A stretch of 64,000 nucleotides of DNA, taken from positions 19,552-83,551 of the IMG/VR virus record IMGVR_UViG_3300020180_000015, one strand, 5' to 3'. Shown here in pieces: positions 6,237 through 33,365 of this stretch; the first letter of the stretch is position 1, and each line of letters begins with the position of its first letter. The notes beneath the pieces were generated by a model. It worked only from the letters and a program-made list of their open reading frames with translations, was not told the DNA's origin and ran no database searches. The DNA comes from a virus. Both the position numbers and the translations under genes were made by a program.

Positions 6237-6333
6237 AACTCCACTACGCTATTTTTGGACATATGGACAAATCTGCGCGGGCTGCCGGGAGTTGTTCGTT
6301 TGCCGCCGCGTCGATTTGTCCTCGATTGCTTCC

Positions 6334-6363
6334 ATCTTACCACGATAGATTATAAACTGTCAA
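6334..6363 (-). promoter_or_regulatory. sigma70-like promoter for the methyltransferase operon
   Basis: On the minus strand TTGACA (6358-6363) is followed after 18 bases by TAAGAT (6334-6339). The spacer contains TTTATAATCTATCG, a member of the TATAATCTTT-type element found near most promoters in this window. Transcription would start near 6327 and leave a leader of about 265 bases. Confidence 0.7.
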
Positions 6364-11772: not shown

Positions 11773-11781
11773 GAAGTGCAG

Positions 11782-11820
11782 ATGGATAAGCGCATTGCCG
11801 AAATGGATCGACTGCTTTAA
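11782..11820 (+). CDS. possible 12-codon mini-ORF
   Basis: ATG GAT AAG ... TAA encodes MDKRIAEMDRLL, with GGAAGTG ahead and a terminator hairpin just after. It may be a relic or a small peptide; no function can be proposed. Confidence 0.2.
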   Translation: MDKRIAEMDRLL

Positions 11821-11825
11821 AACCG

Positions 11826-11862
11826 ACGCGGGCGGCGGGGCAAGACTCGCAACCCGCGTTTT
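11826..11862 (+). terminator. putative rho-independent terminator
   Basis: ACGCGGG ... CCCGCGT followed by TTT ends the DUF3102-like unit. The loop is long (20 bases). Confidence 0.45.
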
Positions 11863-11888
11863 GATTGCTATTTGATCAACGCAAATGC

Positions 11889-11939
11889 TTGACTTCGATC
11901 TCTGTTTAGCTTATACTCTTTACTGTAAAGATTATAAAA
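11889..11939 (+). promoter_or_regulatory. strong sigma70-like promoter with downstream operator
   Basis: TTGACT (11889-11894), 17 bases, TATACT (11912-11917). Immediately downstream lies CTTTACTGTAAAGATTATAAA, the reverse complement of the TTTATAATCTTT..GTAAAG element, covering the expected transcription start. The geometry matches the minus-strand promoter at 21381-21409. Confidence 0.75.
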
Positions 11940-11952
11940 AGGCAGGCGGGAA

Positions 11953-13038
11953 ATGGCACACGGGATTTTAGGTCAACGCTTTTTCAACAACCGGACTCAA
12001 CCAGCGTGGCACGAACTCGGCGTCAACACGGAAGAGGCACACACGGCGGAAGAGGCACTACGACGGCTTGGGCTTTACGCGGTCACCAAGCGCCCGATGT
12101 TTACACACTACGACGGCGCGATGCGTAAGACGGGTTGGTACTCGCTGATGCGCGAACCGATCCCTGAAGACCCGGAATGGCGAGCCTTCGGCACTCCGGT
12201 GAGCGAGGACTACGAACTGGTGGATCCGATGTCTTGCGTGAAAGCGTGGGACGGCGCGGTCAAGGACGCGCACGGAAAGCCTGTCTCAATTGAGACGTTC
12301 GGAGTGCTGGGGAAGGGCGAACAGATTTTCATCAGCGTCAAGCTGCCCAAGACAATCGTCGTGCGCGGCGACGAAATAGACACTTATTTGCTTTATAACA
12401 ACCCGATGTCAAACGGGTTCACCTGCGGTGGTTACACGACAGGCGTGAGGGTGGTCTGTCAGAATACGCTGAACGCGGCGCTACGTGGCACGATTCAAAG
12501 TTTCGCGGTGACACACACCAGCGGGGCGATTGAGCGATTGAGCAAGTGGCTCGGACAGATTTACGCGACTGCAATCGCCTCAACCGAAGTGCTGCAGGCG
12601 GGGTACGAAGCCCTCGCCGACAAGCGGATCAGTAACGATGCGGCGCGCTGGGTCATTGAAAAGACCTACGAACTGCCGAGGATGCCGGATCAGACTGATC
12701 CAGAGGATCGGGGGACGCTCGACATCGAAGAGCGTATGAAGCGGTACGACCGCGAACGTGACCTTATCCGCCGACTGCGGCAGAAAGCCTACAGCTTTTG
12801 GGAAGGCGAAGGCACGGGGATGGATACGCCAGCGGTTCAGGGGACCGCGTTCGGAGTGTGGAACGCGGTCACCGAACTCGAAACGTACCGCAAAGGGGAC
12901 TTGAGCAAGGCGACTGCCCAACTGCTGAATGGCGCACGGGCGGATCGCATCCGAAACTCCTACACCTTGGCGCTGCACGCGGATCGTTGGCAAACGATCA
13001 GCGACAGCGAACTGAAGCTGAAGAAAGTCCGCGTCTAA
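11953..13038 (+). CDS. DUF932 / phage-plasmid-like protein, 361 aa
   Basis: It matches the DUF932 family of phages and plasmids: an N-terminal AWHELGVNTEEAHTAEEAL, the middle VLGKGEQIFISVKLP, and the hallmark GVRVVCQNTLNAAL (around residues 168-181). The C-terminal half is helical and charged. Members are abundant in phage genomes next to replication or partition genes; no enzymatic activity is established. It has its own promoter and operator, so it may be controlled separately from its neighbours. Confidence 0.75.
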   Translation: MAHGILGQRFFNNRTQPAWHELGVNTEEAHTAEEALRRLGLYAVTKRPMFTHYDGAMRKTGWYSLMREPIPEDPEWRAFGTPVSEDYELVDPMSCVKAWDGAVKDAHGKPVSIETFGVLGKGEQIFISVKLPKTIVVRGDEIDTYLLYNNPMSNGFTCGGYTTGVRVVCQNTLNAALRGTIQSFAVTHTSGAIERLSKWLGQIYATAIASTEVLQAGYEALADKRISNDAARWVIEKTYELPRMPDQTDPEDRGTLDIEERMKRYDRERDLIRRLRQKAYSFWEGEGTGMDTPAVQGTAFGVWNAVTELETYRKGDLSKATAQLLNGARADRIRNSYTLALHADRWQTISDSELKLKKVRV

Positions 13039-13109: not shown

Positions 13110-13502
13110 ATGCCTTACGACAAACAAATCCCGGAAGATGAGTATGTTCTAACGGGGCGGCAAGCACCGCACATGGGGGAAGTCATCGCGCCGATGCGTT
13201 TGCTGCGCGGCGTGGCAGGGGCGTATGGCACGCTCTTCTATGATGCTGATACCGACGAATGGGGGGGGGTAGTTGAATCCCACATCAGTGACACGTATGT
13301 CCCTTGCCGCATCCGGCGAGGCGAGGACGGTAAAGCCGAAACGGTGTTTGATTTTTGCGACGAAGGTGCCGTGCCGATCCACAGCATGATCGGGGTGGAT
13401 AATACGCTGCTCGGCGCAATGTCCCGGATGGTCGCTTACCTCAATCCGCCGGATGACGATAACAGTGGCGGGAATATGCCCGTCAAAACGGAGGCGCACT
13501 GA
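13110..13502 (+). CDS. hypothetical protein, 130 aa
   Basis: The start is ATG 13110 behind GGAGGAACGAAG; the longer frame upstream is a shadow of the DUF932-like gene. The protein is acidic with beta-rich stretches (GTLFYDADTDEWGGVVESH). A run of nine G at 13261-13269 encodes the W-G-G codons and could slip, which would shift the frame. It overlaps the next start as TGATG. Unrecognised. Confidence 0.6.
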   Translation: MPYDKQIPEDEYVLTGRQAPHMGEVIAPMRLLRGVAGAYGTLFYDADTDEWGGVVESHISDTYVPCRIRRGEDGKAETVFDFCDEGAVPIHSMIGVDNTLLGAMSRMVAYLNPPDDDNSGGNMPVKTEAH

Positions 13503-13750
13503 TGCGCCAACTAAGCCCAAAGGAGGCGGCGGCACTGCGCCGCCTCCAAGATGAGCTAATCGAAGCAGGGGTGCAGTTCGGTTGGCGACCCCATGTGCCG
13601 ATCAGCGCGGAACTGCCGCCCCATGTCACCTTAAGCTACTTAAAGAGTCAGCTTGTGCCGGAATATGCTGGCGAGTTTCGCAGTATCGTGAATACGTTGT
13701 GCGGATTCAACCCCGCCGACCTGCCAACCGAGGAGATTATCCGTGGATAA
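13502..13750 (+). CDS. hypothetical protein, 82 aa
   Basis: Small protein MRQLSPKEAAALRRLQDEL..., coupled to its neighbours by TGATG at the start and an 8-base overlap at the end. The N-terminal helix is followed by a Pro-rich middle (HVPISAELPPHVTLSYL). The single H-V-T-L-S is reminiscent of half of a 2H phosphoesterase motif, but only one is present. No function assigned. Confidence 0.55.
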   Translation: MRQLSPKEAAALRRLQDELIEAGVQFGWRPHVPISAELPPHVTLSYLKSQLVPEYAGEFRSIVNTLCGFNPADLPTEEIIRG

Positions 13751-14171
13751 CAAGAAGCTGAAGGCACTCCGCGAGATGGCGGGATGCCGCGCCGCCATCG
13801 GTACGCTGCAAGAAACCGTGCCGCGCCGTACCTCGGAGTTTAGTGACCTGACGGCACAGGCGCTGGCGCTTGATTCTGAACTTGCCAAGTCTGTGTCCGA
13901 ACTGCTCAATCATATAGACAGCACGGATGCGGCGCACTCGAAACTGATCTTTATGTTGGTGATGCGGCAGGGCGAACTGCGGATGGTCATCGACGATCTT
14001 GCGCCGGATCATCCGATCCTAACTCGCGTCCCTCGTTTATGGATCAACCAACTGGTCGACCACCTGCGAGAAGGGCTGATCGAGATTGCCGAACTCGACG
14101 GCAATGCGGCTGCTATAGCACGAGCGCGGTTGGATACACAGCCGCTGCCAGAGGACGCCGACGAGTCTTAA
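13743..14171 (+). CDS. hypothetical helical protein, 142 aa
   Basis: It starts at GTG 13743 inside the end of the preceding gene. It is predicted mostly helical (KSVSELLNHIDSTDAAH, RLWINQLVDHLREGLIEI) and ends in an acidic tail PLPEDADES. Unrecognised; part of the 13.1-14.2 kb coupled trio. Confidence 0.55.
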   Translation: MDNKKLKALREMAGCRAAIGTLQETVPRRTSEFSDLTAQALALDSELAKSVSELLNHIDSTDAAHSKLIFMLVMRQGELRMVIDDLAPDHPILTRVPRLWINQLVDHLREGLIEIAELDGNAAAIARARLDTQPLPEDADES

Positions 14172-14189
14172 GTGCCGCTGGGTCGTGTG

Positions 14190-14218
14190 TTGACCGACGC
14201 GCACGACCAGCCCATAAT
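14190..14218 (+). promoter_or_regulatory. sigma70-like promoter
   Basis: TTGACC (14190-14195), 17 bases, CATAAT (14213-14218), followed by TATCGTATAAAGAGTACAAAG, a distant reverse-strand member of the operator family. It serves the gene at 14254. Confidence 0.6.
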
Positions 14219-14253
14219 GTATCGTATAAAGAGTACAAAGCAACGAGGCGCAG

Positions 14254-14622
14254 ATGTTTAAGTATTATACGCCACAGAATATCCCGCACTTCGGCGAACG
14301 TCGCAGTGATCGGATCGTCGTAATCCCGATCAACAGCGGCAATGTCGTCGGCAAATGCTGGATTGCGGAATGGGCGCATATTCAGACTGAAATAGCACGA
14401 CGCGGGCAAGACGATCTCGGACTCGTCGTGATGGATGCAAAGGCGGCACTGATCGCCGCGACCTACGATGACGCAGCTGCAATGTGGGAACCAATTGTTA
14501 TCAAGTCCGACAGTGGGGCAGTGGTCGCGGTGGTGATGACGCTCGACTGCTTCACGGTCGGACTTGATTGGTTGAAATATCGACTCGAAGAAACGGGCGA
14601 ATGGGGTATCGCAGTCAAGTAG
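14254..14622 (+). CDS. hypothetical protein, 122 aa
   Basis: Alpha/beta-looking protein (RIVVIPINSGNVVGKCWIAE, VMDAKAALIAATYDDAA). It has its own promoter at 14190 and is separated from the next gene by about 75 bases. No domain recognised. Confidence 0.55.
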   Translation: MFKYYTPQNIPHFGERRSDRIVVIPINSGNVVGKCWIAEWAHIQTEIARRGQDDLGLVVMDAKAALIAATYDDAAAMWEPIVIKSDSGAVVAVVMTLDCFTVGLDWLKYRLEETGEWGIAVK

Positions 14623-14696
14623 CAGTACCGCCCACAGCGAAGCGCCGATACGCCGAGCGGGGCAATAACACATCGATGGCTTAAGCAATTGAGGAC

Positions 14697-14966
14697 ATGG
14701 CAGTGTCACAGATCACGATTCAATACTCCCAAACAGAAACAGAACAACCAGAAAAATGCTGTCAGGATTGCGGTGCGCCGCTGCGGATGGATTGGTTTCC
14801 ATCCTTCTTGGGTCGACACGGATATTGGTCGGCTACGTGCGATACGACGACGTGCGAACTCGAAGGAGTCACGCTGTCTGTTCATCGCTTCCCTCTGCCT
14901 GAAGAAACGGCAGAGAGCTACCGCCGCCCGTTTCGCAACCGAAAGGACAACCACAGCGCCGGGTAG
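14697..14966 (+). CDS. small Cys-rich, possible zinc-ribbon protein, 89 aa
   Basis: The N-terminal half contains CCQDCGAPLRMDWF (around residues 21-34) and later TCDTTTCELEG, giving two Cys pairs spaced like a zinc ribbon. The start ATG 14697 follows TTGAGGAC. Such small ribbons often bind nucleic acid or partner proteins. Nothing further can be said. Confidence 0.55.
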   Translation: MAVSQITIQYSQTETEQPEKCCQDCGAPLRMDWFPSFLGRHGYWSATCDTTTCELEGVTLSVHRFPLPEETAESYRRPFRNRKDNHSAG

Positions 14967-14984
14967 TCTGTTAGCTCTTTCACC

Positions 14985-15016
14985 CGACCAATTTACCCTG
15001 ACCGGTAAATTGGTCG
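14985..15016. promoter_or_regulatory. 13-bp inverted repeat, probable MarR-type operator
   Basis: CGACCAATTTACC-CTGACC-GGTAAATTGGTCG has perfect 13-bp arms and lies 65 bases before the MarR-family gene. MarR proteins usually bind such palindromes in their own promoter region, so autoregulation is inferred. With no T-run after it, a terminator is less likely. Confidence 0.6.
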
Positions 15017-15081
15017 ACCATGGGGAACGCCCGCCGCAAGGCGTCGTGCTTGGACAAATTAACTAGGGAAAGGGGATCGCC

Positions 15082-15510
15082 GTGAAATCGTTGTTCGCAC
15101 AGGTTGTGCAGTTAGATCGTCTGGTTGCCATCGTCGCCGACCAGCACATCGCTACGGCAGGGGTCGATTTGAAAGTCGTCCACGTCATTATTCTCGCCGC
15201 GTTGTATGAGCGCAACGGACGCCGCGCCAAAGACTTGGCAGCCGCCATCGGGTTTCCGGCAACATCGTTCACGCCGAGTCTTGATAGTGCTGAATCCGAC
15301 GGATTGGTTGAGCGACGCGCAGATAAACTGGATCGCCGCGCCGTCAATATTTATCTGACGCCGAAAGCCGAAGCGATGCGCGATCAGGTGCTGGCGGCGT
15401 ATGCCGCCATGGAGCATGGCATCCGTATCCAGATCGACGACTTCGTGTCGAGACTGCCCGAAATGACCGACCACGAGCTCGCCATTGCACTTGCGCGAGT
15501 GCTGGCATAA
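15082..15510 (+). CDS. MarR-family transcriptional regulator, 142 aa
   Basis: It starts at GTG 15082 behind GGAAAGGGG. The winged-helix core is clear: VHVIILAALYERNGRRAKDLAAAIG, FTPSLDSAESDGLVERRADKLDRRAVNIYLTPKAEAM, the last being the wing plus the 'LT..G/A' end typical of MarR. Length and layout match the family, with dimerisation helices at both ends. A perfect palindrome upstream is a candidate self-operator. Target genes and ligand are unknown. Confidence 0.8.
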   Translation: MKSLFAQVVQLDRLVAIVADQHIATAGVDLKVVHVIILAALYERNGRRAKDLAAAIGFPATSFTPSLDSAESDGLVERRADKLDRRAVNIYLTPKAEAMRDQVLAAYAAMEHGIRIQIDDFVSRLPEMTDHELAIALARVLA

Positions 15511-16400: not shown

Positions 16401-16841
16401 ATGCTTGAATTGCAACCGATCAGTTATTTGGAAGCTTGTACCTTCATCAACAAAAACCATAGCCACCACCGTGCGCCGCAAGGGTGGAAGTTCGGCATTG
16501 CTGTTAATGACGGTGAAAAAGTTGTTGGTGTAATCACCGTTGGCCGTCCGGTGTCTCGGATACTTGATAACGGATGGACACTAGAGGTAACGAGGTGCTG
16601 TACCGACGGCACTAAGAACGCGGCAAGTAAACTTTATGGCGCGGCAGCGCGGGCAGCTTCCGCTTTGGGGTATAAGCGACTTATCACCTACACGCTTCAA
16701 TCGGAAACGGGTACTTCTCTATTGGCGGCGGGGTGGAAATCGCTTTATGTGACGCCGGGTCGACCATGGAATTCGGCGAGTCGTCCGCGTGTGGACACTC
16801 ACCCTTTAGGGCAAAAGACACTTTGGGAAGCTGTTCTGTAA
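16401..16841 (+). CDS. GNAT-like protein of the XF1762 phage family, 146 aa
   Basis: The pattern fits the XF1762-type family found in phages and mobile islands: FINKNHSHHRAPQGWKFGI, VVGVITVGRPVSR, LEVTRCCTDGTKNAASKLYGAAARAA, and ITYTLQSETGTSLLAAGW. The fold looks like an N-acetyltransferase core. Substrate is unknown. Start ATG 16401 has GAGGTGGG ahead. Some relatives lie next to DNA-modification genes, as here (a methyltransferase 600 bases on), but a joint role is only a guess. Confidence 0.7.
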   Translation: MLELQPISYLEACTFINKNHSHHRAPQGWKFGIAVNDGEKVVGVITVGRPVSRILDNGWTLEVTRCCTDGTKNAASKLYGAAARAASALGYKRLITYTLQSETGTSLLAAGWKSLYVTPGRPWNSASRPRVDTHPLGQKTLWEAVL

Positions 16842-16890
16842 GGCGGGCGAATACGACGACGAGCACGCCGACTTGTATGACTACTAAGCG

Positions 16891-16914
16891 GCGCGGGTCT
16901 GAACTATCAGACCC
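16891..16914. other. strong hairpin, possibly terminator-like
   Basis: GCGGGTCTGA-ACTA-TCAGACCCGC is a perfect 10-bp stem between the GNAT-like gene and 16931. No T-run follows, so it may be a processing or protection structure. Confidence 0.4.
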
Positions 16915-16930
16915 GCCAGTGCAGGGGGGC

Positions 16931-17350
16931 ATGATGAGTATGTTTGTTATCTGGCGTGTTGATCAAGCCTACGTTTGCGGACCCGGCATTGACGGCGATA
17001 TTTACGATTCAGAAGAATGGGCAAACGACGTGCGTTGGGCAACAGCACGCGAGACACCCGACTTCACCATCCTAGAATATGTCGATTGCGACCCGCCGCC
17101 CGCGCTCGATTACGCGGCGCTCTCAGACGGCGAACGCGCCGCCGTCGATATGCTCTACCACGGGGAGTTGCAGCAGTACGAACAGCGCCATATGCCCTGC
17201 ACTAAGCGCGAGATCGCCCGGCTTGTGAAGCAAGGGTGGATTGGCGAGGATAAGGAATGGTTTGACGAGCGTTGCTACCATGGAAGCGCCTATCATCCGG
17301 CGGTTTACTGGATCACGCTGGGGGGGATAGAGGCGATAAGTAGCGAGTAG
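16931..17350 (+). CDS. hypothetical protein, 139 aa
   Basis: The start ATG 16931 is directly behind GGGGGG; a longer form from 16877 would pass through the hairpin. The product has EEWANDVRWATARE and a winged-helix-like end (TKREIARLVKQGWIGEDKEWFD ... VYWITLGGIEAI). Unrecognised. It ends just before the late-type element at 17376. Confidence 0.55.
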   Translation: MMSMFVIWRVDQAYVCGPGIDGDIYDSEEWANDVRWATARETPDFTILEYVDCDPPPALDYAALSDGERAAVDMLYHGELQQYEQRHMPCTKREIARLVKQGWIGEDKEWFDERCYHGSAYHPAVYWITLGGIEAISSE

Positions 17351-17375
17351 CGGGAATGGGGTAGGGGTTGCTGCC

Positions 17376-17409
17376 GTGTCTGGTTTACGTGGCGGTTTTA
17401 TATTACGCT
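17376..17409 (+). promoter_or_regulatory. late-type promoter-like element 1 (GTGTCTGGTT ... TACGCT)
   Basis: GTGTCTGGTT starts exactly 28 bases before TACGCT (17404-17409), the spacing kept in nearly all ten copies of this element. It precedes the methyltransferase gene at 17447 and abuts a 25-bp palindrome. Confidence 0.55.
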
Positions 17410-17414
17410 AAAAT

Positions 17415-17439
17415 CAAATTCGACAATTTGACGATTTTG
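17415..17439. repeat. dispersed 25-bp palindrome, copy 3 (operator position)
   Basis: CAAATTCGACAATTTGACGATTTTG begins 6 bases after the TACGCT hexamer at 17404 and ends 7 bases before the ATG of the ParB-domain methyltransferase. Here it would cover the transcription start, the place of a repressor operator. Confidence 0.75.
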
Positions 17440-17446
17440 AGGTCAC

Positions 17447-18742
17447 ATGTCAGACGATCCACGCATCAAACATTCAAAGCTGAAGGACTTCACCCAAGAC
17501 CTTGAAAACGCGAATTTAGGCAGCGAACGCGGACAGCAAATGATCGAGGACTCCTTCCGAGAGTTAGGCGCGGCGCGTTCGATGGTCGCGGATAAGAACC
17601 GCACACTGATCGCCGGAAACAAGTCCGCCGAGGCAGCCATCGCCGCTGGACTTGAGGACGTGATCGAAGTTCACACGACGGGTAAAGAGGTGGTGATCGT
17701 CGTGCGTGACGACGTTGACTTGCTCGATGAAAGCGACTCGAAGGGTCGCCAGATCGCGTATCGAGATAATCGCTCCGCACAGGTATCCATGACGTGGGAC
17801 GCAGCGCGGTTGCTCGTCGACATGAAAACCCGTCCGGAAATCCTAGCAAAGATATTCACAGCCGATGAATTAAAGGTGTTGATCGCTCCGGCACTCGAAG
17901 CTGGCACAGGGGATGTGCCGGATGCCAAACTGGATCAGATCGAAGAAATTCATAAGAAGTGGGGCGCGAAAGAAGGCGACCTATGGCTCATCGAGTCAAA
18001 GTCGGGTTTCGGCGATCACCGGGTATTTTGCGGCGACTCGACCAAAGATGAGGATGTGCGCCTCGCCATCGGCGCACTGCATCCGAATCTGTGCATGACC
18101 GACCCGCCGTATGGAGTTGATTACGATCCGGCATGGCGCGAGGATATGGACATCGCACGCGGCGGCACGGGCGGCAACCACGCGATTGGCAAAGTACAGA
18201 ACGACGATATTGTCGACTGGAGCGCCGCGTATCGCCTGTTCCCCGGCAACGTGCTGTATGTGTGGCACGCCGGAGTATTCGCGCCGGAGGTCGGTATTAG
18301 CATCAAGGCGAGTGGATTTGATATTCGCGGTCAGATCATCTGGCGGAAACAAGCGCCTGTGATGAGCCGGGGCGCGTACCACTGGCAACATGAGCCAGCA
18401 TTCTACTCAGTCCGGCATGGGCAGACGGCGAACTGGAAAGGGGATCGCAAACAATCCACGATCTGGGACATCGCCAACATGAGCGCCGTGCAGGGCAGCG
18501 CCGAAGATAAACCGACGGGGCATTCTACCCAAAAACCCGCATCTGTTTTTACCCGATGCTTCCTGAACCACTCCCTTGCATCAGATGCAATCTACGATCC
18601 GTTTCTCGGATCGGGGACGGCGATTGCTGCGGCTGAGTCGTTGAGCCGCATCGGGTGCGGGTTGGAGATCGATCCTCGCTATGTTTCGTTGGTCATGGAA
18701 CGACTGTCGGATATGGGATTATCACCGAGGAGAGGCGAATGA
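17447..18742 (+). CDS. ParB-N-domain / DNA methyltransferase fusion, 431 aa
   Basis: The N-terminal 150 residues follow the ParB/sulfiredoxin-like domain seen in phage methyltransferases: NRTLIAGNKSAEAAIAAGL, then GRQIAYRDNRSAQVSMTWD. The C-terminal half is a beta-class methyltransferase with DPPYGVDYD (from residue 219) and DPFLGSGTAIAAAESL (from 384). DPPY suggests N6-adenine. These fusions often sit immediately upstream of the terminase, as here, which suggests modification of DNA about to be packaged. A palindrome at its start may control it. Confidence 0.88.
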   Translation: MSDDPRIKHSKLKDFTQDLENANLGSERGQQMIEDSFRELGAARSMVADKNRTLIAGNKSAEAAIAAGLEDVIEVHTTGKEVVIVVRDDVDLLDESDSKGRQIAYRDNRSAQVSMTWDAARLLVDMKTRPEILAKIFTADELKVLIAPALEAGTGDVPDAKLDQIEEIHKKWGAKEGDLWLIESKSGFGDHRVFCGDSTKDEDVRLAIGALHPNLCMTDPPYGVDYDPAWREDMDIARGGTGGNHAIGKVQNDDIVDWSAAYRLFPGNVLYVWHAGVFAPEVGISIKASGFDIRGQIIWRKQAPVMSRGAYHWQHEPAFYSVRHGQTANWKGDRKQSTIWDIANMSAVQGSAEDKPTGHSTQKPASVFTRCFLNHSLASDAIYDPFLGSGTAIAAAESLSRIGCGLEIDPRYVSLVMERLSDMGLSPRRGE

Positions 18743-18782: not shown

Positions 18783-19430
18783 ATGCGCTGTGCAGCGAAG
18801 TCTAAGCAATCCGGCGAGCAATGTAAGCGCCACGCTACGCCGGGTAGAAACGTTTGCGTGATCCACGGCGGCAAGTCCCTCGCGGGACCGTTGTCGGCAA
18901 CGTATATCCACGGGCGCTATTCTAAGTACCTGCCACACGGACTCGCGGCGAAGTACGAAGAAGCCATAACCGATCCTGACTTACTGAACCTCTCCGGCGA
19001 GATCGCGCTCGTGGATGCGCGGGCGATGGAGTTGCTCTCTGCGGTGAATTCCGGCGACGCCCCGGCGCTGTGGGGCAAGTTACAAAAGGCATCGGGGGAA
19101 CTCACAGCCGCGCAACAGACGGGGGATGCGTTCAAACTAGCGATTGCGCTGAACGACATGCTCGACCTGATCCATCGGGGATCGGCGGAAGCGGCGCGTT
19201 GGCAGGAAATCTATAACCTATTTGAACGCCGCCGTAAGCTGGTGGACTCCGAGCGCCGCCGACGTGAAGCGATGCAAAACTCAGTGAACGCCGAAGGAAT
19301 GATGCTGCTTATTGCCGCAATAGCCGACTTGGTGAATCAGAATGTTACCGATCCTAAAGCCCGAACCGCCATTAGCGGAGGACTTGCTAACCTTATCTCT
19401 GCGCGAACTTCAACGACTCATCGATCCTGA
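18783..19430 (+). CDS. probable terminase small subunit / HGG-type zinc protein, 215 aa
   Basis: It opens with CAAKSKQSGEQCKRHATPG, CVIHGGKS and TYIHGRYSKY, the Cys/His and HG(G/R) signature found in phage proteins encoded just before the large terminase. The rest is helical. It overlaps the large terminase gene by about 90 bases. By position and signature it is the likely DNA-recognition subunit of the packaging motor, but a canonical small-terminase HTH is not obvious. Confidence 0.65.
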   Translation: MRCAAKSKQSGEQCKRHATPGRNVCVIHGGKSLAGPLSATYIHGRYSKYLPHGLAAKYEEAITDPDLLNLSGEIALVDARAMELLSAVNSGDAPALWGKLQKASGELTAAQQTGDAFKLAIALNDMLDLIHRGSAEAARWQEIYNLFERRRKLVDSERRRREAMQNSVNAEGMMLLIAAIADLVNQNVTDPKARTAISGGLANLISARTSTTHRS

Positions 19431-20856
19431 TGCCGAGCAGCCGGCAGCGCCGCTATGGACGCCGTTGCCGGGTCCGCAAACGGATGCATACAATTCCCTT
19501 GCCGATGAGTTGTTCTACGGCGGCGCGGCGGGCGGCGGTAAAAGTTGGCTCGTGTTGGGGTTGGCGCTCACGGCGCATCGCCGCTCGATCATCTTCCGCC
19601 GCGAACACACGCAGTTAAGGCAATTGATCGACGACTCCCGCAAACTGCTTACAGGCAGGGGAGCGCGGTACAACGGACAGGATCACGTTTGGCGCGGCAT
19701 CCCCGGTGCGCGGATATTGGAGTTCGGCGGTGTGCCACACGAAACAAACGTGGAGCGGTATCAGGGTCGCGGTCACGACTTCAAAGCATTTGATGAAATC
19801 CCAACGTTCACCGGGCGTCAGTTCCGATTCCTGAAAGGGTGGATGCGTACCGATATGCCGGGACAGCGAACGCGCACGGTATGCACTGGCAACCCGCCGA
19901 CTGATCCAGAGGGGGAGTGGGTCGTCAAGTATTGGGCACCGTGGCTCGATGCCGATCACCCTGACTACCCCGAAATCCCCGGCAAGCTGCGCTGGTTTGC
20001 CGTCATCGGCGAGAGCGACGTTGAGGTAGAGTCAGGGTCGCCGTTCATGCACGACGGCGAAGAAATCCAACCCCAATCGCGTACTTTTATCCCTGCACGC
20101 ATTGAGGACAATCCGATCTACATGCAGACGGGGTATAAGTCTGTGCTGCAGTCCCTGCCCGAACCACTCCGCAGCAAGTTCCTATTCGGCGACTTCTCGG
20201 CTGCCGCAAATGATAACCCTTGGCAGGTGATCCCGACTGAATGGATACGGGCTGCACAAAGGCGATGGGACGGGATGGAGAAGCCCGAACTAGAACTGCG
20301 CTGCCTGAGTGCCGATGTCGCACGGGGCGGCGATGACAGCACGGTGATCGCACGGATGTTTGGGAACTGGATCGCGCCGTTGGAGAAGTTTCCCGGCAAG
20401 GACACGCCGGATGGGATCGCGGTCGCTGACTTGATCGGCAGCCGCTTGAGCGGCGATGCGGTCGCATTTATCGACGTGATCGCCGTTGGTACATCGCCGT
20501 ATGACATTCTACGGATGCGTAAGAAGCGCGTCTACGGTGTGAACTTCAGTACCGCGTCAACAGTGAAGGATAAAACGAGGACGCTTGAATTTAGCAACCT
20601 ACGCGCCGAAGTGTACTGGCGTGCGCGGGAAATGCTCGACCCCGCAAGTGAGTGGCAGATCGCGCTGCCGCCGGATCGTGAACTGCTGGTCGATCTCGCC
20701 GCACCGCGCTATTCGGCGGACGGACGCAAGGTGAAGATTGAACTGAAGGACGAGATCAAGAAGCGTATCGGCAGATCACCAGACAAGGGCGACGCTGTTG
20801 TTATGCTGCTGTGGGGGGCGTATATGGGCGCAGGGCGTTCGGTCAGGATGGTGTAA
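19342..20856 (+). CDS. terL: terminase large subunit
   Basis: The ATPase-nuclease that packages DNA into the prohead. Walker A GGAAGGGKSW is at residues 60-69, the adenine/arginine region IIFRREHTQLRQL follows, and Walker B plus catalytic Glu is KAFDEIPTF (148-156). The coupling motif is VCTGNPP near 180. The RNase H-like nuclease begins SADVARGGDDSTVIAR near 323 with its first acidic residue at Asp325, and later aspartates follow (AFIDVIAVG, SPDKGDAVVMLLW). At 504 aa it is full length. Confidence 0.93.
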   Translation: MLPILKPEPPLAEDLLTLSLRELQRLIDPDAEQPAAPLWTPLPGPQTDAYNSLADELFYGGAAGGGKSWLVLGLALTAHRRSIIFRREHTQLRQLIDDSRKLLTGRGARYNGQDHVWRGIPGARILEFGGVPHETNVERYQGRGHDFKAFDEIPTFTGRQFRFLKGWMRTDMPGQRTRTVCTGNPPTDPEGEWVVKYWAPWLDADHPDYPEIPGKLRWFAVIGESDVEVESGSPFMHDGEEIQPQSRTFIPARIEDNPIYMQTGYKSVLQSLPEPLRSKFLFGDFSAAANDNPWQVIPTEWIRAAQRRWDGMEKPELELRCLSADVARGGDDSTVIARMFGNWIAPLEKFPGKDTPDGIAVADLIGSRLSGDAVAFIDVIAVGTSPYDILRMRKKRVYGVNFSTASTVKDKTRTLEFSNLRAEVYWRAREMLDPASEWQIALPPDRELLVDLAAPRYSADGRKVKIELKDEIKKRIGRSPDKGDAVVMLLWGAYMGAGRSVRMV

Positions 20857-23411: not shown

Positions 23412-25667
23412 ATGCCATATATGGCAATTGAACGAGACGGTAAATTTATGGTGTATGTGAGGGGCGCCGACAACAAACCCAAAGGGCGATCTCGCGGCAC
23501 TTACACAGGCGATGATGCAAAGGATCAGGCGGCGGAGCAGTTAGATAACCTACGGACTGTCGAACGCGGCGAACAGCAAAACCGCCGTCGCTACAATGGG
23601 CTTGATCTAGCTCCGCCTTCCGGCGTCCGTGCTGCGTGTCAGCGAGGATTAGATCAAGAAGGCGGCACGGCGCTTCAGCGGCAAGCTGCCGAACTGATCA
23701 CGTCCGGTTCGCAGTTATCCGTTCTCGCGATTCGCACTGTTGCGCGGCAGTTTAATAAGTCGCGCAAGTCGGGTGACGACCAACAGCATCTGCTGCGCGG
23801 CGGCGATGCTGGCGCGGTGTGGTTCAAGACCATGGCGGCGGCACTCGATAATATGGACAGCGGCGTGAAGTCGGCAAAAGAAGTTGGTGAAGGCACGGAA
23901 CGACGCCGTGAACGCGATGGGCCGTCCGGCATGGGCTTCGGCAGCGGCGGCGACTTTCGTCCGATTGATTATGACGCCTTGTCTCGTGAGTCATCGCGCC
24001 TGCAAAGGATGATGACAAGCGGTGATCTCGGACTCCCTGCGGCGTTGGGCGCGTTTGAACGAACCGTGCGCGAGGCGGCGAGTTTTGCAGGGGGTAGCAA
24101 ACGACAGGCACTGTCCCGCGCCGCTGATGACATCGAGAAAGGCATTCCCCTGTTCAAGTCGCCGATGCCGTCCGATGATAACTCATCAGCAATGTCGCCG
24201 CACGAACGCGGCATCGCAATGTTGAAGAATGCATTCGTGGCAATACGAATCGTGGCGAGTGCAAAGGCGATCACGGCATCCAACGCAAGCGGCGCGGGGT
24301 TTAGCATACCGCCGGATGACGACGGACTAGGAGCGACGGTGAGTATGCGTAAGGGCATGGAGGTTTACGTGAAGTCCACTGGCGAGATCGGCACGGTGCG
24401 CGGCGTGAAGCGAGTCGGCGACGGCGTGCGTTACAAGGTCGAGACGCCGAGCGGGTTTACGATCTGCAGCCGCAAGGGGATTATGTCGGCACGGGCGAAG
24501 GCGATCAAAGAAGCTGCCGTTGCATGTGACACGATCCAGAAGGCAGCGGACGCTGAAACAGTCGATGCCGAAACAGTGAAAGCGGCGCTCAAGGCACTGG
24601 CGACCAGTTGGAAGATCGCCGATATGTCGACCCGCGAGAAGATGCAAACATCCTATGATGCGCTGATCGCCGCCCGTGCGATCCTGACGGCGTCGCCGGA
24701 TGAATCAGACTTGGCGAAAAAGTATCTGGCGATGGCGAAAGCAGGACTCGATCCTATTGCCGAAGAAGGTGTGAAGGCATCTTACGACAATGGGGTGAAG
24801 CGGGCTGTCCAACTCCTGCAGATGGTTCGGGCGAGTTTGTCAGTCGATTCTCAACCGCAGCGATTGGGGAACGTGCGACTTTTAAACAAAGTCGACGGAC
24901 TCCTTTCCCGATTGCTCACGACGGCATCGCCGAACGGACAGCGCGTGTTTCGCGGCATCCAAGAAACGCTGTCGCGGTTCACGGATAACGAGGAGTCGTG
25001 GTACCCGGCACAGACGCCGATCAGCGAGTGGGAGCAGGGGATCAGTGATGCTTTGCGGCAGATGATAGCATTTGCCGGGGGGAGGGGCATTAAGGCGGAA
25101 GGTGAAGTCGAAAAGATGCGCGAAGTATTGATCAGCGCGTACAACGACAGGATCATCACCGGAGATGAAAGTAAACAGCTTGATCAACTGCGTCACCAGA
25201 CGAAAAACCCGATCGGCGACCTCGATTACTTTGATTATTCGATCAACGCATACGGCACGAAACCTGAATATCTCGCCAAACGTAAAAAGGTACTGCAGCG
25301 ACTCAACAGCATTATTCGGAAGCGCAATCGCCTAGTCGACGAGATCAATCAGCGGGCGGCAAAACCTCAGACAAAGAATACGGCGGAAGCGGCGCTGAAG
25401 GCACTGCAGGACGTGGTCGGCGAGATCACGACCGCTGGAGCATCAACCGATGACCAGCAGGAGCGAATGCTTGAAGCCGTCGATACGTTACATCTGTACG
25501 CCGCCGCCGCCGGAGAAAAGGCGATCAAGAGCCTTGAGCCACTCGAAGAGGCGTTATACGCAGAACCTGACGACGGACTGAGCGAGTGGCAGCAGCGGGT
25601 TGTCAGCATGATCGAAGATTACCAAGCGAAGATCGCCAGTGAACCAGAACCAGAAGCGGTGACCTAA
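23412..25667 (+). CDS. large hypothetical protein upstream of portal, 751 aa
   Basis: It begins MPYMAIERDGKFMVYVRGADNKPKG..., with a short beta N-terminus resembling the 'FCV...G' openings of some phage morphogenesis proteins. A long helical body rich in Ala, Lys and Asp follows. Around residue 300-355 lies a small beta segment (GATVSMRKGMEVYVKSTGEIGTVRGVKRVGDGVRYKV) that looks like an SH3/KOW-type barrel. It abuts the portal gene (TAATG). Position suggests a head or injected protein; function not recognised. Confidence 0.6.
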   Translation: MPYMAIERDGKFMVYVRGADNKPKGRSRGTYTGDDAKDQAAEQLDNLRTVERGEQQNRRRYNGLDLAPPSGVRAACQRGLDQEGGTALQRQAAELITSGSQLSVLAIRTVARQFNKSRKSGDDQQHLLRGGDAGAVWFKTMAAALDNMDSGVKSAKEVGEGTERRRERDGPSGMGFGSGGDFRPIDYDALSRESSRLQRMMTSGDLGLPAALGAFERTVREAASFAGGSKRQALSRAADDIEKGIPLFKSPMPSDDNSSAMSPHERGIAMLKNAFVAIRIVASAKAITASNASGAGFSIPPDDDGLGATVSMRKGMEVYVKSTGEIGTVRGVKRVGDGVRYKVETPSGFTICSRKGIMSARAKAIKEAAVACDTIQKAADAETVDAETVKAALKALATSWKIADMSTREKMQTSYDALIAARAILTASPDESDLAKKYLAMAKAGLDPIAEEGVKASYDNGVKRAVQLLQMVRASLSVDSQPQRLGNVRLLNKVDGLLSRLLTTASPNGQRVFRGIQETLSRFTDNEESWYPAQTPISEWEQGISDALRQMIAFAGGRGIKAEGEVEKMREVLISAYNDRIITGDESKQLDQLRHQTKNPIGDLDYFDYSINAYGTKPEYLAKRKKVLQRLNSIIRKRNRLVDEINQRAAKPQTKNTAEAALKALQDVVGEITTAGASTDDQQERMLEAVDTLHLYAAAAGEKAIKSLEPLEEALYAEPDDGLSEWQQRVVSMIEDYQAKIASEPEPEAVT

Positions 25668-28636
25668 TGGGGTTGTTAAACGAGATAGGGCAAGTTTACG
25701 GCGACGGCGTGAAGGCTGCTGTGAAGTCGCTGAGTAATCTACCGCGCCGTCCGGCGGCGACACGCTACCAGCGTCAAGCGCCGTTTGTGCGCGGCGCTCC
25801 TGCTCGGCGGCAGCAGTCGTTGATCATCAATGACGAACTGCAGCACGCGGTCAAGTCCGTCTCGTATAGCGATTTCATAAACGACTTCATAAATGCCGAA
25901 GGTACGAACTGGCGGAACAATTACTCCGAACAGCAGATCGAGTCGGCGTATGCCACGTCGGTTTACCTGTTTGCGGCGATGCGCCGCGTGGCGAACCTGT
26001 TCTCCATGGTGCGCTTTGTCGCCGAAGTCGACAAGGGCGGCGATTGGCAGCGGCTGCCAGATACTCACCACTTAAATAAAATATTCACAGTCGCCGGCGC
26101 ACGGTTCATGTACCACCTGTATATGTATTACGCGCTCTACGGCACGACGCTTGTTTATAAACGCAAGACCCGTAAGGCACTCGCCGCCTACCAGCGTGGC
26201 AAACTAATCAGCGGGTATTTGGAGGGCGGGATCGCAGGATTATCGGTCATCCCTAATTCGCGCTGGGAGATATTCGAGGACGAGTATCAGGGCGAGATTC
26301 AGGGATTTAGCCTGAACGAGCCGATGGGCGAACTGAAGGCGGGGATGCGGGATCGGGACGAGTTCGTGTACATCCACGACTTTGACCCGCGCTTTTTGAA
26401 CAACGGCATCTCGATGGTAAGTCTAGCGATCAACAACGCGATCACCAATGCCGCCATCGCACGATGGGCGGCACACTACTTTATGTCCGGCGCTATGCCG
26501 CTGCTGCTCATCAGCACTGAAGAAGACCCGGCGATGCAGACCGAAGCGGACTTGATCCGGCAAAAGAATTTTATCGAGCGGGCGTGGCAAGGGTTGTTCG
26601 GCAAGTTTGCGATGCGTGCCGTATTCACGGATCGCAAACTGAACGTGCAGCAAGCCGGGATTGATGCCGAGAAAGTTCAAGCACCGGATTTGAACCGTGA
26701 CTCATTGAACGCCATCGCTTCGGTATTCCAGATCGCGCCGGATTTAATCGTCCCGCCCGAAGGCGGCAGCGACAACGCACGGCATAAGTTCCTCATGATG
26801 GATGCATTTCGTTCGGCGATCCTGCCTGTCGCATGGCAGATGACAGACGTATTCAATGCCGACATGGGGCTGCACGATGCGAACGTGCGGATCGTGGTCG
26901 CAGAAGATGAGATCACGGCGCTGGATGCAGATCGCGCCGACAATGCGACCACTGAAACAGGGCTGTTTACCTCCGGTATCCAGACGTTCGGGGAAACCCG
27001 TGACCAGATGCGCTTCAAGCCATCGCCGGGACTCAAGCTGCTGGAGAGCTTTATCAATATCAATGGGCGGCTTCAGTCGGTTGAGCGAGTCCTGCGGGAT
27101 GACCAACTGCCAAGCGACTTTATCATGCAGTACGCGCCGACTGCGTGGGATGCCGGGATCGTCAAGCGTTCCGAAGTGCGAAAGCTAATGTTTAATCTGC
27201 CGACGCCTGCCGCTGAGGACGGGTACAAGTATGAAGTAGTGCCAGACCCATCGGCGGGCGGCGGCTTCGGCGGAGGTGGTACGCCGTCACCAGAACCGCC
27301 TGAAAACGGCGGAGGTTCGCTTCCTGCGGGTGATCGTCCCCAACTGCCCGGCAAAACGCCACAGGGCGGCACGGTCGCGCCGACGGTCGCTCCGACGGAC
27401 GGTGACAAGGCAGTCGATCAAAATCGTCAAATTGTCGATTTTGCCGGGATCGAAAGCGCCGAGACGGATGGGCGGATCATCCCGGTGACTCCGGTTGCGC
27501 GTTTGACGGCGAGTGCCACACAGCAGCATTCGGCATGTGCGTTACTCATGATCGGCGACGACCCACTGATCCAGACGGTTGCCACGCAGTTAGAGATCAT
27601 GCTCGACGGCGTCCCTGCTATTTGGCAAGACCCTGAAACGTATCACTGTACCCTCGTTTACAGTGATCATGCGACGGACGACCAGATCGCGGCGGCGCAG
27701 AAACTTATGCCGGAATACATGCCGGACATCACTTTGCGCGTGGATGGGTTGATCACGTTTGAGACGCAGGATGGTTTGTGCATCGCGCTGCGTGTGGATA
27801 CGACGCAGGGATTGGAAGGGTTGCAGAGCCACACTCGCACGTCGTTCAGTAACGCGGCGCTGCCGATTTCGCCTTACTCTGCTTCGGGGGCGTATATGCC
27901 ACATATCACGCTGTGCTATGTGCCGGACGAGACTCCCGTGCCGGAATTCACCTGCGCGATCAGCGTCGTGCCGCAGTGTATCCAAGTCACCCGCGACGAG
28001 TACAAAGTGGTCTTTGAACTGCCGTCGATCCGCGAGGCAGCGGGGGACGACCCGAACCACGCGCACAACCGACAGATGCTGATCGACGACGCCGAGATTA
28101 CACGGCAGTTCGTGCAGTCGGCGCTGCGGACATGGCGCGATACGGGGGAGCCGGGTCCCGGCTTGAGCGACGCGGTCAAGAACGTGGTACGTGAAGCACT
28201 GGCGCAGGATGCGGCGATGGCGTGGGACGCCGCGCTGAAGGCGTGCGATGACGGGTACTTTGACGACAGCGCCGATTTGACGGACGGGCATAATCCGATA
28301 TTGGGTGTAATGGCAAAGGCGAAACTAGCGATGCAGGAAACACCTGAAGCCGAACTGGATGCGTGGGAACGCTCCGCGTTCCGTAATGGGGTATCGAAGG
28401 CGGCGAGTCGGTTTGAAGTGAACCTGCTACCATTGGCGCTTGAGCAGACGGTGAAGGCGAGACTTGCCGATGTCAAAACGAAAACGGAAATCAAACTCGT
28501 GTTCAATGACGCCCGTGCCGCACTCGCCGAGAGTGCGCCGAAGGCAGTGGACGAGGACTCGCTGATGGCATGGGCGGAACGGGTCGCCGGGATGGACGGG
28601 TTGGGCGACTTGCTCGACGATGACTTGACTTCCTAA
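25667..28636 (+). CDS. portal protein fused to a 2H phosphoesterase domain, 989 aa
   Basis: Residues 1 to about 525 read as an HK97/SPP1-type portal (YATSVYLFAAMRRVANLFS, YALYGTTLVYKRK, LNAIASVFQIAPDLIVPP, then ETRDQM), the 12-mer through which DNA enters the head. A Gly/Pro linker (about 525-590) follows; it contains a copy of the dispersed palindrome. Residues about 615-790 carry two H-x-T motifs, YHCTLVYS (His660) and PHITLCYV (His746), the signature of 2H phosphoesterases, which include the LigT-type RNA enzymes and the anti-CBASS nucleases that cut cyclic nucleotides. A helical tail of about 200 residues ends the protein. Portals are usually 400-550 aa. Confidence 0.85.
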   Translation: MGLLNEIGQVYGDGVKAAVKSLSNLPRRPAATRYQRQAPFVRGAPARRQQSLIINDELQHAVKSVSYSDFINDFINAEGTNWRNNYSEQQIESAYATSVYLFAAMRRVANLFSMVRFVAEVDKGGDWQRLPDTHHLNKIFTVAGARFMYHLYMYYALYGTTLVYKRKTRKALAAYQRGKLISGYLEGGIAGLSVIPNSRWEIFEDEYQGEIQGFSLNEPMGELKAGMRDRDEFVYIHDFDPRFLNNGISMVSLAINNAITNAAIARWAAHYFMSGAMPLLLISTEEDPAMQTEADLIRQKNFIERAWQGLFGKFAMRAVFTDRKLNVQQAGIDAEKVQAPDLNRDSLNAIASVFQIAPDLIVPPEGGSDNARHKFLMMDAFRSAILPVAWQMTDVFNADMGLHDANVRIVVAEDEITALDADRADNATTETGLFTSGIQTFGETRDQMRFKPSPGLKLLESFININGRLQSVERVLRDDQLPSDFIMQYAPTAWDAGIVKRSEVRKLMFNLPTPAAEDGYKYEVVPDPSAGGGFGGGGTPSPEPPENGGGSLPAGDRPQLPGKTPQGGTVAPTVAPTDGDKAVDQNRQIVDFAGIESAETDGRIIPVTPVARLTASATQQHSACALLMIGDDPLIQTVATQLEIMLDGVPAIWQDPETYHCTLVYSDHATDDQIAAAQKLMPEYMPDITLRVDGLITFETQDGLCIALRVDTTQGLEGLQSHTRTSFSNAALPISPYSASGAYMPHITLCYVPDETPVPEFTCAISVVPQCIQVTRDEYKVVFELPSIREAAGDDPNHAHNRQMLIDDAEITRQFVQSALRTWRDTGEPGPGLSDAVKNVVREALAQDAAMAWDAALKACDDGYFDDSADLTDGHNPILGVMAKAKLAMQETPEAELDAWERSAFRNGVSKAASRFEVNLLPLALEQTVKARLADVKTKTEIKLVFNDARAALAESAPKAVDEDSLMAWAERVAGMDGLGDLLDDDLTS
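27419..27443. repeat. dispersed 25-bp palindrome, copy 4 (inside portal fusion linker)
   Basis: CAAAATCGTCAAATTGTCGATTTTG is placed in frame in the linker between the portal and 2H phosphoesterase parts of the 989-aa protein. Confidence 0.75.
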
Positions 28637-30969: not shown

Positions 30970-30999
30970 CCCGCATGGAAACTTCCATGCGGGTTTTTT
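30970..30999 (+). terminator. terminator hairpin between promoter-like element and capsid gene
   Basis: CCCGCATGGAA-AC-TTCCATGCGGG then TTTTTT. It stops readthrough from upstream. Because a promoter-like element lies before it, it could also act as an attenuator of capsid expression. Confidence 0.8.
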
Positions 31000-31016
31000 G
31001 TTTTAGTCGAGGTGTC

Positions 31017-33365
31017 GTGACCGGAATTCTGCTCCATAAGGCGGGCGGCGCAATCAAATCCGTACAGCGCGGTAACGGGCTAATCGAGGGGTATTTGATC
31101 TCCTTCGGCGGACCCGCGGATACCGATCTGGAGGGGCAGTGGTTCACGCCACGCACAGACATCCGTGAGGACTATTTCCGCGACTATCCGATGCTGTTTC
31201 ATCACGGCATGGATTCGGCAGTGGGGTTAGACCCCATTGGGCGGATTTTGCGGGTCGACAAAGACAACGTGGGATGGCACGCCAAAGCCCAGCTTGATCT
31301 TCACGATCAATACGGGCGGCAGGTGAGTGAACTGCTTGATCTTTACCCGTTGGGGTGGAGTAGCGGTTCAGTGGATCACCTTGTCGTAATTGCGGACACT
31401 GGCGAAATTCTGGTGTGGCCCCTCTTTGAGGGGACTGTCACGCCGACGCCGGCGCAGTCTCGCAAAACGTCGGTGCGGGCTTTGAAAGCGGTGTTAACTC
31501 GCGGTCAAACGGGAATTCCGAGAGGGCTTCGTGCTAGAGCGGATGCCGGGATCGCTGCCAATCTCGAAAGCAGTGGAGGAACGGTCATGGCGTTGAGCGC
31601 GCGTAGAAGCACGGCTCAGTACGTGAAGAGTGTACTTAAGAAGGCGGGGTTTAAACCGACCCCCGAAGAAGAGATGGCGATTGCTGCCGATCTCGAAAGC
31701 AGTGGAGGAACGGTCATGGCGTTGAGAGCGCGTAGAAGCACGGTTCAGTACGTGAAGAGCGTACTCAAGAAGATGGGGTTTAAAGCGACCCCCGAAGAAG
31801 AGATGGCGATTGCTGCCGATCTCGAAGTACAGGATGCGATGCTGTCGGATGATGAGTTTGGCGATGCAACGTTGGCGGATGATGAGTTTGACGATGCAAT
31901 GATGTCGGATGATGAGTTCGGCGACGCGATGCTGTCGGATGATGAGTTCGGCGACGCGATGATGTCGGATGATGAGTTCGGCGACGCGATGCTGTCGGAT
32001 GATGAGTTCGGCGACGCGATGCTGTCGGATGATGAGTTCGGCGACGCGATGCTGTCGGATGATGAGTTCGGCGACGCGATGCTGTCGGATGATGAGTTCG
32101 ATCCGGCGATGCTGAGTTACCGCAAGTCGCGCCGCCGGACAGCGCGTTCGCGTCAGAAGTCGATGACTGTGGATCAGTCGCAGGAGATCAACGCCATGAG
32201 GCGGCGCATCAATGCGTTGGAATTGCAAGAAGCGCCGGGGGAGCGGATGATCGGTATGAAATCACTGCGTGTGACACGAGATCGGGCGGATCAGCCCGGT
32301 GCGTACAAGTCGGTATTCACCAAGTACATACGCTTCGGTGAGTTCCGCATGAACGACGATGATCGCCGTACTCTGCGAAAAGGGCAGGTGGATTACGGTG
32401 CAGCCGACCGGGTGACGGGCGTCAAGGCTTTGACATCCAGCACATCGGGCAGCGTCGGGTTTTCCGTGCCGGACGACTTCATTGCGGAATTGAACCGCAA
32501 CATCATGGTTGATGCAGTGACGGCGAATGAGTGTAAGCGCCGCACCACGACCAGCGATACGGTCTTGATCCCCGATCTGCAGACGACTGATGCTCGCCGT
32601 GCGTATGCCGGGCGCACCACATGGATCGGCGAAACTGCCGCAAACCAAGCGGAGACGGATGTGACGCCGATCACAATGGGGCAGATTCAACTGCCGATTC
32701 ACGTCTTACTCGTCTCGACCGTCGCATCACTTTCCAGTCTCGAAGATAGCGCGTTCGATTTACAGGCGTACATCACTGAGGCGTTCAGCGAAATGATCGC
32801 CATCGAACACGAAGAATTGATCTGGTCGGGCAACGGGCAGGGGAAGATGCGCGGCATCGTCACCGATACTCGCGTGACTGGCAGCGCGTCGACGGGTGTG
32901 TCCAGCGTGAGCGGATTCATCGCCAGCGGCAGCGCGGCGTCCATTGCCGACGCCGACAAAATCCGGTCATTGACCATGCACTTGCCGCCTCAATACCGGG
33001 CGCGTGCCAAGTGGTACATGAACAGCAACACGGCAAACATCATCATGCAGTTGAAGGACGCGAACGGGCGTTATCTGTGGGGCGATGAACAGGGTTTGAA
33101 TCAGGGTGCGCCAACCACACTCCTGAACAAGCCGATTGTGTTCAATGAATGGGCATCGGACGTGGCGGCGGGAGCATTCCCGATCTTACTCGCCGATCTC
33201 AGTCGTGGGTACACCATCGCTAATCGTGTGGAATTCAGCGTCCGCCGCTTTGATGACAGCACCTATGCGGTACAAGACAACACGCTCGTGTTGGGGCGTG
33301 CGCGTATGGGCGGCATGGTCACACAGCCCATTGCTATCAAGGCACTGAAGATCGCCGTCAGCTAA
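31017..33365 (+). CDS. prohead protease / repeat linker / major capsid fusion, 782 aa
   Basis: The start is GTG 31017 behind GAGGTG; the ATG at 30975 lies in the terminator. Residues about 1-150 match HK97-type prohead proteases, with MLFHHGMD (His62) and LGWSSGS (Ser115). Residues about 179-265 are two 43-aa repeats, and about 272-362 are nine acidic 10-residue repeats (DAMLSDDEFG). From about residue 390 it is an HK97-fold major capsid protein (TGVKALTSSTSGSVGFSVP, ELIWSGNGQGKMRGIV, PIVFNEWASD). Protease, scaffold-like linker and shell in one chain is unusual; the protease would cut itself out during maturation. Gene order supports this: it is the only capsid candidate. Confidence 0.85.
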   Translation: MTGILLHKAGGAIKSVQRGNGLIEGYLISFGGPADTDLEGQWFTPRTDIREDYFRDYPMLFHHGMDSAVGLDPIGRILRVDKDNVGWHAKAQLDLHDQYGRQVSELLDLYPLGWSSGSVDHLVVIADTGEILVWPLFEGTVTPTPAQSRKTSVRALKAVLTRGQTGIPRGLRARADAGIAANLESSGGTVMALSARRSTAQYVKSVLKKAGFKPTPEEEMAIAADLESSGGTVMALRARRSTVQYVKSVLKKMGFKATPEEEMAIAADLEVQDAMLSDDEFGDATLADDEFDDAMMSDDEFGDAMLSDDEFGDAMMSDDEFGDAMLSDDEFGDAMLSDDEFGDAMLSDDEFGDAMLSDDEFDPAMLSYRKSRRRTARSRQKSMTVDQSQEINAMRRRINALELQEAPGERMIGMKSLRVTRDRADQPGAYKSVFTKYIRFGEFRMNDDDRRTLRKGQVDYGAADRVTGVKALTSSTSGSVGFSVPDDFIAELNRNIMVDAVTANECKRRTTTSDTVLIPDLQTTDARRAYAGRTTWIGETAANQAETDVTPITMGQIQLPIHVLLVSTVASLSSLEDSAFDLQAYITEAFSEMIAIEHEELIWSGNGQGKMRGIVTDTRVTGSASTGVSSVSGFIASGSAASIADADKIRSLTMHLPPQYRARAKWYMNSNTANIIMQLKDANGRYLWGDEQGLNQGAPTTLLNKPIVFNEWASDVAAGAFPILLADLSRGYTIANRVEFSVRRFDDSTYAVQDNTLVLGRARMGGMVTQPIAIKALKIAVS
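31554..31811 (+). repeat. 129-bp tandem repeat, two copies, coding
   Basis: Two consecutive 129-bp units (43 codons) starting near 31554 and 31683 encode AANLESSGGTVMALS... and AADLESSGGTVMALR.... A third copy begins at 31812 (AADLE) and breaks off. Confidence 0.8.
31833..32102 (+). repeat. 30-bp tandem repeat, nine units, coding
   Basis: Nine consecutive 30-bp units encode DAMLSDDEFG with small changes; the later units are identical in DNA, pointing to recent expansion. It forms an acidic, flexible arm next to the capsid domain. Confidence 0.9.

Follow-up and report, generated by a model that had tools for sequence, protein, structure and literature searches.

Why would a phage join its portal protein to a 2H phosphoesterase-type domain and, if that domain is an enzyme, where and on what might it act? 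These questions are raised by the window analyzed here, a stretch of 64,000 nucleotides that covers bases 19552-83551 of a virus record 83,551 bp long. A first-pass annotation, made from the letters of the sequence, had described a portal (residues 1-525) followed by two H-x-T motifs characteristic of the 2H superfamily, and had suggested a link to the anti-CBASS protein Acb1 or to LigT-like RNA enzymes.

A portal and a 2H domain in one reading frame

Both parts are encoded in a single uninterrupted open reading frame (ORF) of 989 amino acids at 25667-28636 on the plus strand. The portal assignment is borne out by a match to the Pfam family Phage_portal (PF04860) over residues 102-446 (59.1 bits against a cut-off of 39.1, E = 5.6e-16) and by the PHROGs portal profile (E = 1.8e-14), and a profile search of the 83.5-kb record detects a PF04860 portal in this ORF alone. 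The genomic context is that of a head module: the ORF lies downstream of the terminase large subunit (19342-20856, plus strand; PHROG terminase, E = 3.5e-39) and upstream of the major capsid protein, an HK97-type domain that ends an ORF also containing a prohead-protease-like domain and acidic repeats (30975-33365, plus strand; PF05065, E = 9.3e-50). The latter protein, of 796 amino acids, carries about ten acidic repeats of the form DDEFGDAMLS between its protease-like N-terminus and the HK97 capsid domain.

The portal region proper (residues 1-526, 25667-27244, plus strand) is followed by a Gly/Pro-rich linker (residues 527-615, 27245-27511, plus strand) with 17 glycines and 13 prolines among its 89 residues and a GC content of 65%, compared to 56-57% for the flanking domains. 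Next comes the 2H phosphoesterase-type domain (residues 616-789, 27512-28033, plus strand), then a joining region (residues 790-884, 28034-28318, plus strand) that has no significant Pfam match and is mostly helical in a low-confidence model of residues 616-989 (built from two sequences only, pLDDT 37.7), and finally, a C-terminal element (residues 885-989, 28319-28633, plus strand) to which we return below.

The same order of portal, Pro-rich linker, 2H domain and C-terminal region is found in a 1024-residue ORF of another metagenomic phage, the 86-kb contig IMGVR_UViG_3300024265_000039 (hereafter L002). The two proteins are 43% identical overall and 50% identical in the portal, both H-x-T motifs are retained, and the linker is poorly conserved. 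The phage that encodes this relative also has the same protease-capsid fusion, 57-59% identical to that of the window. Pattern scans of viral contigs and genomes for closer relatives yielded L002 alone, and among 50,697 phage records, there was no whole-protein match at E of 0.001. Thus, the window phage is highly diverged and represents a lineage of the portal-2H fusion that is new here.

Because L002, on a different contig, has a single ORF in which portal and 2H domain are likewise joined and the two motifs are present, a sequencing error joining two frames, a concern raised in the first-pass annotation, is ruled out as the source of the arrangement. More generally, given that 2H and portal proteins are separate neighboring genes in other phages, an assembly artefact that merged such neighbors might be imagined, but its probability is virtually negligible: in addition to L002, a distinct portal-2H fusion exists in a prophage (see below), and the C-terminal portal element resumes past the 2H domain.

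The 2H domain resembles LigT rather than Acb1

Members of the 2H superfamily have in common a pair of motifs of the form H-x-T-[hydrophobic], separated by about 80-100 residues, and the window domain conforms to this layout, with HCTL at residues 660-663 (27644-27655, plus strand) and HITL at residues 746-749 (27902-27913, plus strand). The spacing of 86 residues given in the first-pass annotation is correct, and the histidine and threonine of each motif do not vary in L002 or in any row of our two 2H alignments, A5 and A8. On its own, such a motif pair is weak, suggestive evidence of a 2H domain: when residues 601-800 are shuffled, it arises by chance in 0.44% of the sequences, and when the whole protein is shuffled, in 0.3%. 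The assignment is nevertheless firm because it is backed by profile matches, the predicted fold and conservation in L002. The Pfam profile 2_5_RNA_ligase2 (PF13563), a 2H family, matches residues 660-765 with 28.6 bits (cut-off 27, E = 1.7e-6) and the L002 domain with 34.2 bits; PHROGs assigns the same ORF to 'RNA ligase' (phrog_755, E = 1.4e-4). With the LigT_PEase profile, the window copy scores 14.1 bits, below the cut-off of 23.3, and the L002 copy, 24.2 bits, above it.

The structural comparison, which the first-pass annotation had proposed along with the profile search, points in the same direction. A PDB search with the single sequence returned nothing useful. An AlphaFold2 model of residues 616-789, for which the input was the A8 alignment of eight 2H sequences from the window and viral contigs, has a pLDDT of 80.9 and a pTM of 0.78, and the best Foldseek match in the PDB is Escherichia coli LigT (E = 2e-6, probability 1.00, TM-score 0.54). 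Other matches listed include CPDases, the Burkholderia phage phosphodiesterase 9q2y, MHV ns2, AKAP18, Usb1 and the poxvirus cGAMP PDE; the TM-scores of the listed PDB matches are moderate, 0.46-0.64, with CPDase/phosphoesterase entries other than LigT reaching 0.64. With regard to the first-pass expectation that both histidines face one cleft, the model agrees as far as fold and strands go: it has the two-lobed 2H fold, and each H-x-T motif opens a core strand (45-54 and 131-138 in model numbering), as in LigT. E. coli LigT (ThpR) and the 2',3'-CPDases (PF13563/PF02834) thus share the 2H fold and the two motifs with the window domain; however, LigT is a stand-alone cellular enzyme, whereas the window domain, about 16% identical to it, is fused to a portal.

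The Acb1 connection fares differently. Acb1 (PF23474), the anti-CBASS nuclease of T4-like phages, belongs to the 2H superfamily and has the same H-x-T/H-x-T tetrad, so that a portal-borne nuclease of this type could be envisaged, all the more since some Acb1 proteins, along with the Cantare 'RNA ligase' and Lilbeanie proteins, are among the structural matches in viral models, and weak matches to the Acb1 profile are detectable (E = 0.15 for the window, E = 0.052 for L002). Yet these matches, with 12.2 and 13.7 bits, respectively, are far below the cut-off of 27, whereas PF13563 exceeds its own; LigT leads the PDB matches, and no solved Acb1 structure is named among the best 50 PDB matches listed. 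Acb1 itself is a free protein and is marked by aromatic base-stacking residues, E141 and a C-terminal lid (PMC9117128). Membership in the Acb1 family is, accordingly, rejected at the profile level, and an anti-CBASS nuclease of the Acb1 type appears highly improbable. By sequence, the window domain is closer to LigT, 2'-5' RNA ligases and CPDases than to Acb1. Since both H-x-T motifs are kept, it is probably an active, metal-independent phosphodiesterase.

The 2H domain appears to be inserted within the portal

The C-terminal element offers a clue to how the fusion is built. It also ends a 618-residue portal frame (locus L057) of another phage (G003), in which no 2H domain is seen and which is related to the L002 portal (blastp E = 2.5e-10). 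Residues ~470-566 of this portal match residues 887-986 of the window protein (37% identity, E = 3.8e-5; blastp E = 9e-5), a modest similarity, and a profile of the element recovers three lineages only, those of the window, L002 and G003, among the loci examined. Because a distantly related portal without a 2H domain has the same C-terminal element, the comparison supports the inference that the 2H domain, together with about 95 further residues, was inserted between the portal core and this element rather than appended to the protein.

The G003 phage does encode a 2H domain, but on a different head protein: it heads a 1048-residue ORF (L027 3749-6895, plus strand), where it is followed by a prohead-protease-like domain and an HK97 capsid domain. 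The protease-like part of this polyprotein is 39% identical to the N-terminal part of the window protease-capsid protein (E = 1.7e-31). The 2H domains of the window and of L027 show no special similarity to each other, and therefore, transfer and independent acquisition are equally likely.

2H domains on other head proteins

A search that started from the weak similarity of the window 2H domain led to phages with 2H genes in their head modules. The kinds of head protein now known to carry a 2H domain number at least five, and isolated phages have, in addition, stand-alone 2H genes next to their portals. The first-pass annotation had proposed looking for similar fusions, and in addition to L002, with the same architecture, there is one in a prophage of an Anaerolineae metagenome-assembled genome (JAHBVI010000029.1, locus L034). 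Its 913-residue ORF (3600-6341, plus strand) consists of a portal (E = 1.5e-50), a 2H domain (E = 1.8e-11) and a MuF domain, and the neighbors are terminase-, protease- and capsid-like, as read from the ORF sequences. As in the window, portal and 2H share one ORF but, unlike in the window, that ORF extends into MuF; the two portals have no significant blastp similarity. A tree of 21 2H sequences is too poorly resolved to discriminate between one and several origins of the portal-2H fusion.

Other carriers are diverse. Brevibacterium phage Cantare encodes a stand-alone 2H protein (gp9) two genes past the portal-MuF gene, and Gordonia phages Gray and GMA6 carry, after the portal-MuF gene, a 2H gene directly followed by a gene for a VIP2-like ADP-ribosyltransferase; these two genes (L017 3797-5877; L019 3731-5820) resemble a cassette of head-borne effectors. 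Fusions of 2H to the XkdF prohead protease are present in Arthrobacter phages Salgado and Kovu, in Microbacterium phage ValentiniPuff and in IMG/VR contigs; the annotations of the Arthrobacter proteins (L011 6749-7870 and relatives) range from 'RNA ligase' and 'aldolase class I' to 'capsid maturation protease' but, in Pfam, these proteins consist of 2H and the XkdF protease. In Streptomyces phages Xkcd426 and Geonosis, the 2H domain stands behind MuF, and in loci of actinobacterial genomes, it is fused to an S78 protease (L030, L032) or a Mu-I-like protease (L038). Cantare gp9, Gray gp25, Salgado gp18 and Xkcd426 gp12 are 2H proteins that, like the window domain, either belong to the head module or are fused to its products, near portal, MuF or protease; they differ in the carrier, these being solo or linked to the XkdF protease or MuF where the window domain is carried by a portal.

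Conservation of the motifs across these forms bears on whether the domain is an enzyme at all. 2H domains are known to serve as binding modules, as in AKAP18, which is among the Foldseek matches, and a simple motif scan picked up only one H-x-T in 2H domains of the MuF type and of proteins annotated 'head maturation protease' (L014, L015, L018, L021), Phinally and Lilbeanie being among the head-borne cases. Some head 2H domains may therefore be inactive, not enzymes, and by extension, the window domain could have a structural or an RNA- or nucleotide-binding part to play in the head, being either devoid of catalysis or incidental. For the window phage, we consider this improbable, given that the window, L002, L034 and those solo, XkdF-linked and S78-linked forms that were examined all retain both motifs, even though the A5 and A8 sequences are just 18-39% identical to the window domain.

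The range of carriers invites a broader, tentative proposal, which we regard as possible but less probable than its negation, namely, that phage heads have in 2H phosphodiesterases a general-purpose cargo, mobile among portals, MuF proteins, prohead proteases and capsid polyproteins. What would be under selection is the location in the head rather than any particular carrier, and the cargo would be freed at infection, erasing RNA-damage ends or defense nucleotides before phage genes are expressed.

A possible head-carried counter-defense enzyme

Portals are dodecamers with the C-termini facing the head interior, and they are not injected but stay with the head. Because of this architecture, we infer that about twelve copies of the 2H domain would be present per head, on the side of the portal that faces inward, each predicted to follow the portal core and a flexible linker and to precede the C-terminal portal element. 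The domain would open 2',3'-cyclic or 2'-5' phosphodiester bonds, either at RNA ends or in small nucleotides. That the portal carries, inside the head, a LigT-type enzyme directed at RNA ends or nucleotide signals, most likely in counter-defense, is the reading that we favor and to which we would give an even chance.

Placement and action have to be considered separately. The first-pass annotation positioned the domain at the vertex from which DNA leaves and suggested that it could act at infection; it is indeed portal-linked, but portal C-termini lie inside the head, so that entry into the host cell would require the domain to be cut loose. An uncut 2H domain could not be injected because the portal stays behind. 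The head-carried domain might, then, be freed with the DNA by cleavage in the linker, or else it might act in the cytosol during head assembly. The 89-residue Gly/Pro-rich linker would permit cutting, and the prohead-protease-like domain of the same phage is a candidate context for it. Counting against release, a single cut in the linker would free the C-terminal portal element as well.

The difficulty of release lends some appeal to an explanation in which the domain works late, in the infected cell, at the stage of head assembly, degrading alarm nucleotides or healing damaged RNA near the heads while tethered to the portal. The carrier is a late structural protein that is kept in the head and not injected, both motifs are conserved, and the window copy revealed no internal start accompanied by a ribosome-binding site, from which a free 2H domain could be made (weak ones are present in L002 only). 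Nonetheless, we deem this explanation unlikely, since by itself it leaves unexplained the repeated placement of 2H domains on proteins of the head interior, and a free gene would do as well.

Under the favored counter-defense reading, a phage-encoded RNA-repair pathway is disfavored as the setting, since neither the RNA ligase PF09414 nor KptA (PF01885) was found in records G000 and G001, which may be incomplete; PF09511 likewise had no match, nor did its control, in these possibly fragmentary records.

Other genes of the record

Several other genes of the phage merit mention. The 83.5-kb genome encodes seven DNA methyltransferases, five of them consecutive (four N6/N4-type, one C5-type), located at 741-5356 (minus strand) and 17447-18742 (plus strand) in the window and at 13823-15289 (minus strand) in locus L004 of the same record; the group is possibly an anti-restriction cassette. 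L004 also contains a sliding clamp (DNA polymerase III beta subunit) and a DnaB helicase (11621-12751 and 16718-18172). An actin-like protein (ALP_N, MreB-like_C; window 6704-7777, plus strand) possibly functions in plasmid-type segregation or as a phage cytoskeleton. Finally, an 82-residue ORF (window 13502-13750, plus strand) resembles the second half only of a 2H domain (PPHVTLSYL; 19.1 bits, below the Pfam cut-off), and no first H-x-T was seen in the neighboring ORF.

Relation to previous work and implications

Both the fusion and the functional idea have been published before, in 2017 and in 2022. In Fig. 5B of their article, Iyer et al. depicted fusions of 2H domains with MuF or portal proteins, and they proposed that such domains act as RNases or break down defense nucleotides (PMC5512222); section 3.4.5 of a 2022 article (PMC9503650) restated the proposal for SMODS, cyclic-mononucleotide and CRISPR signaling. 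The published fusions, with 2H on the portal and a predicted packaged activity of the RNase or anti-defense-nucleotide kind, agree in these respects with the window protein, in which the 2H domain lies between the portal core and the C-terminal element; this comparison is with the published architecture rather than with the individual proteins of Fig. 5B. New here are the diverged lineage, a further portal fusion besides it (L034), the putative insertion of the domain within the portal and the inventory of carriers, of which the protease- and capsid-linked forms were not found in the passages of these two articles that were covered. In the part of the literature covered, we found no test of the 2017 prediction of a packaged counter-defense 2H domain.

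Culturable phages with 2H domains on or beside head proteins, namely, Cantare, Gray, Salgado and Kovu, now put this prediction within reach of bench experiments. If it is true, phages of this kind would carry in their heads pre-made enzymes directed against RNA-based or nucleotide-based immunity.
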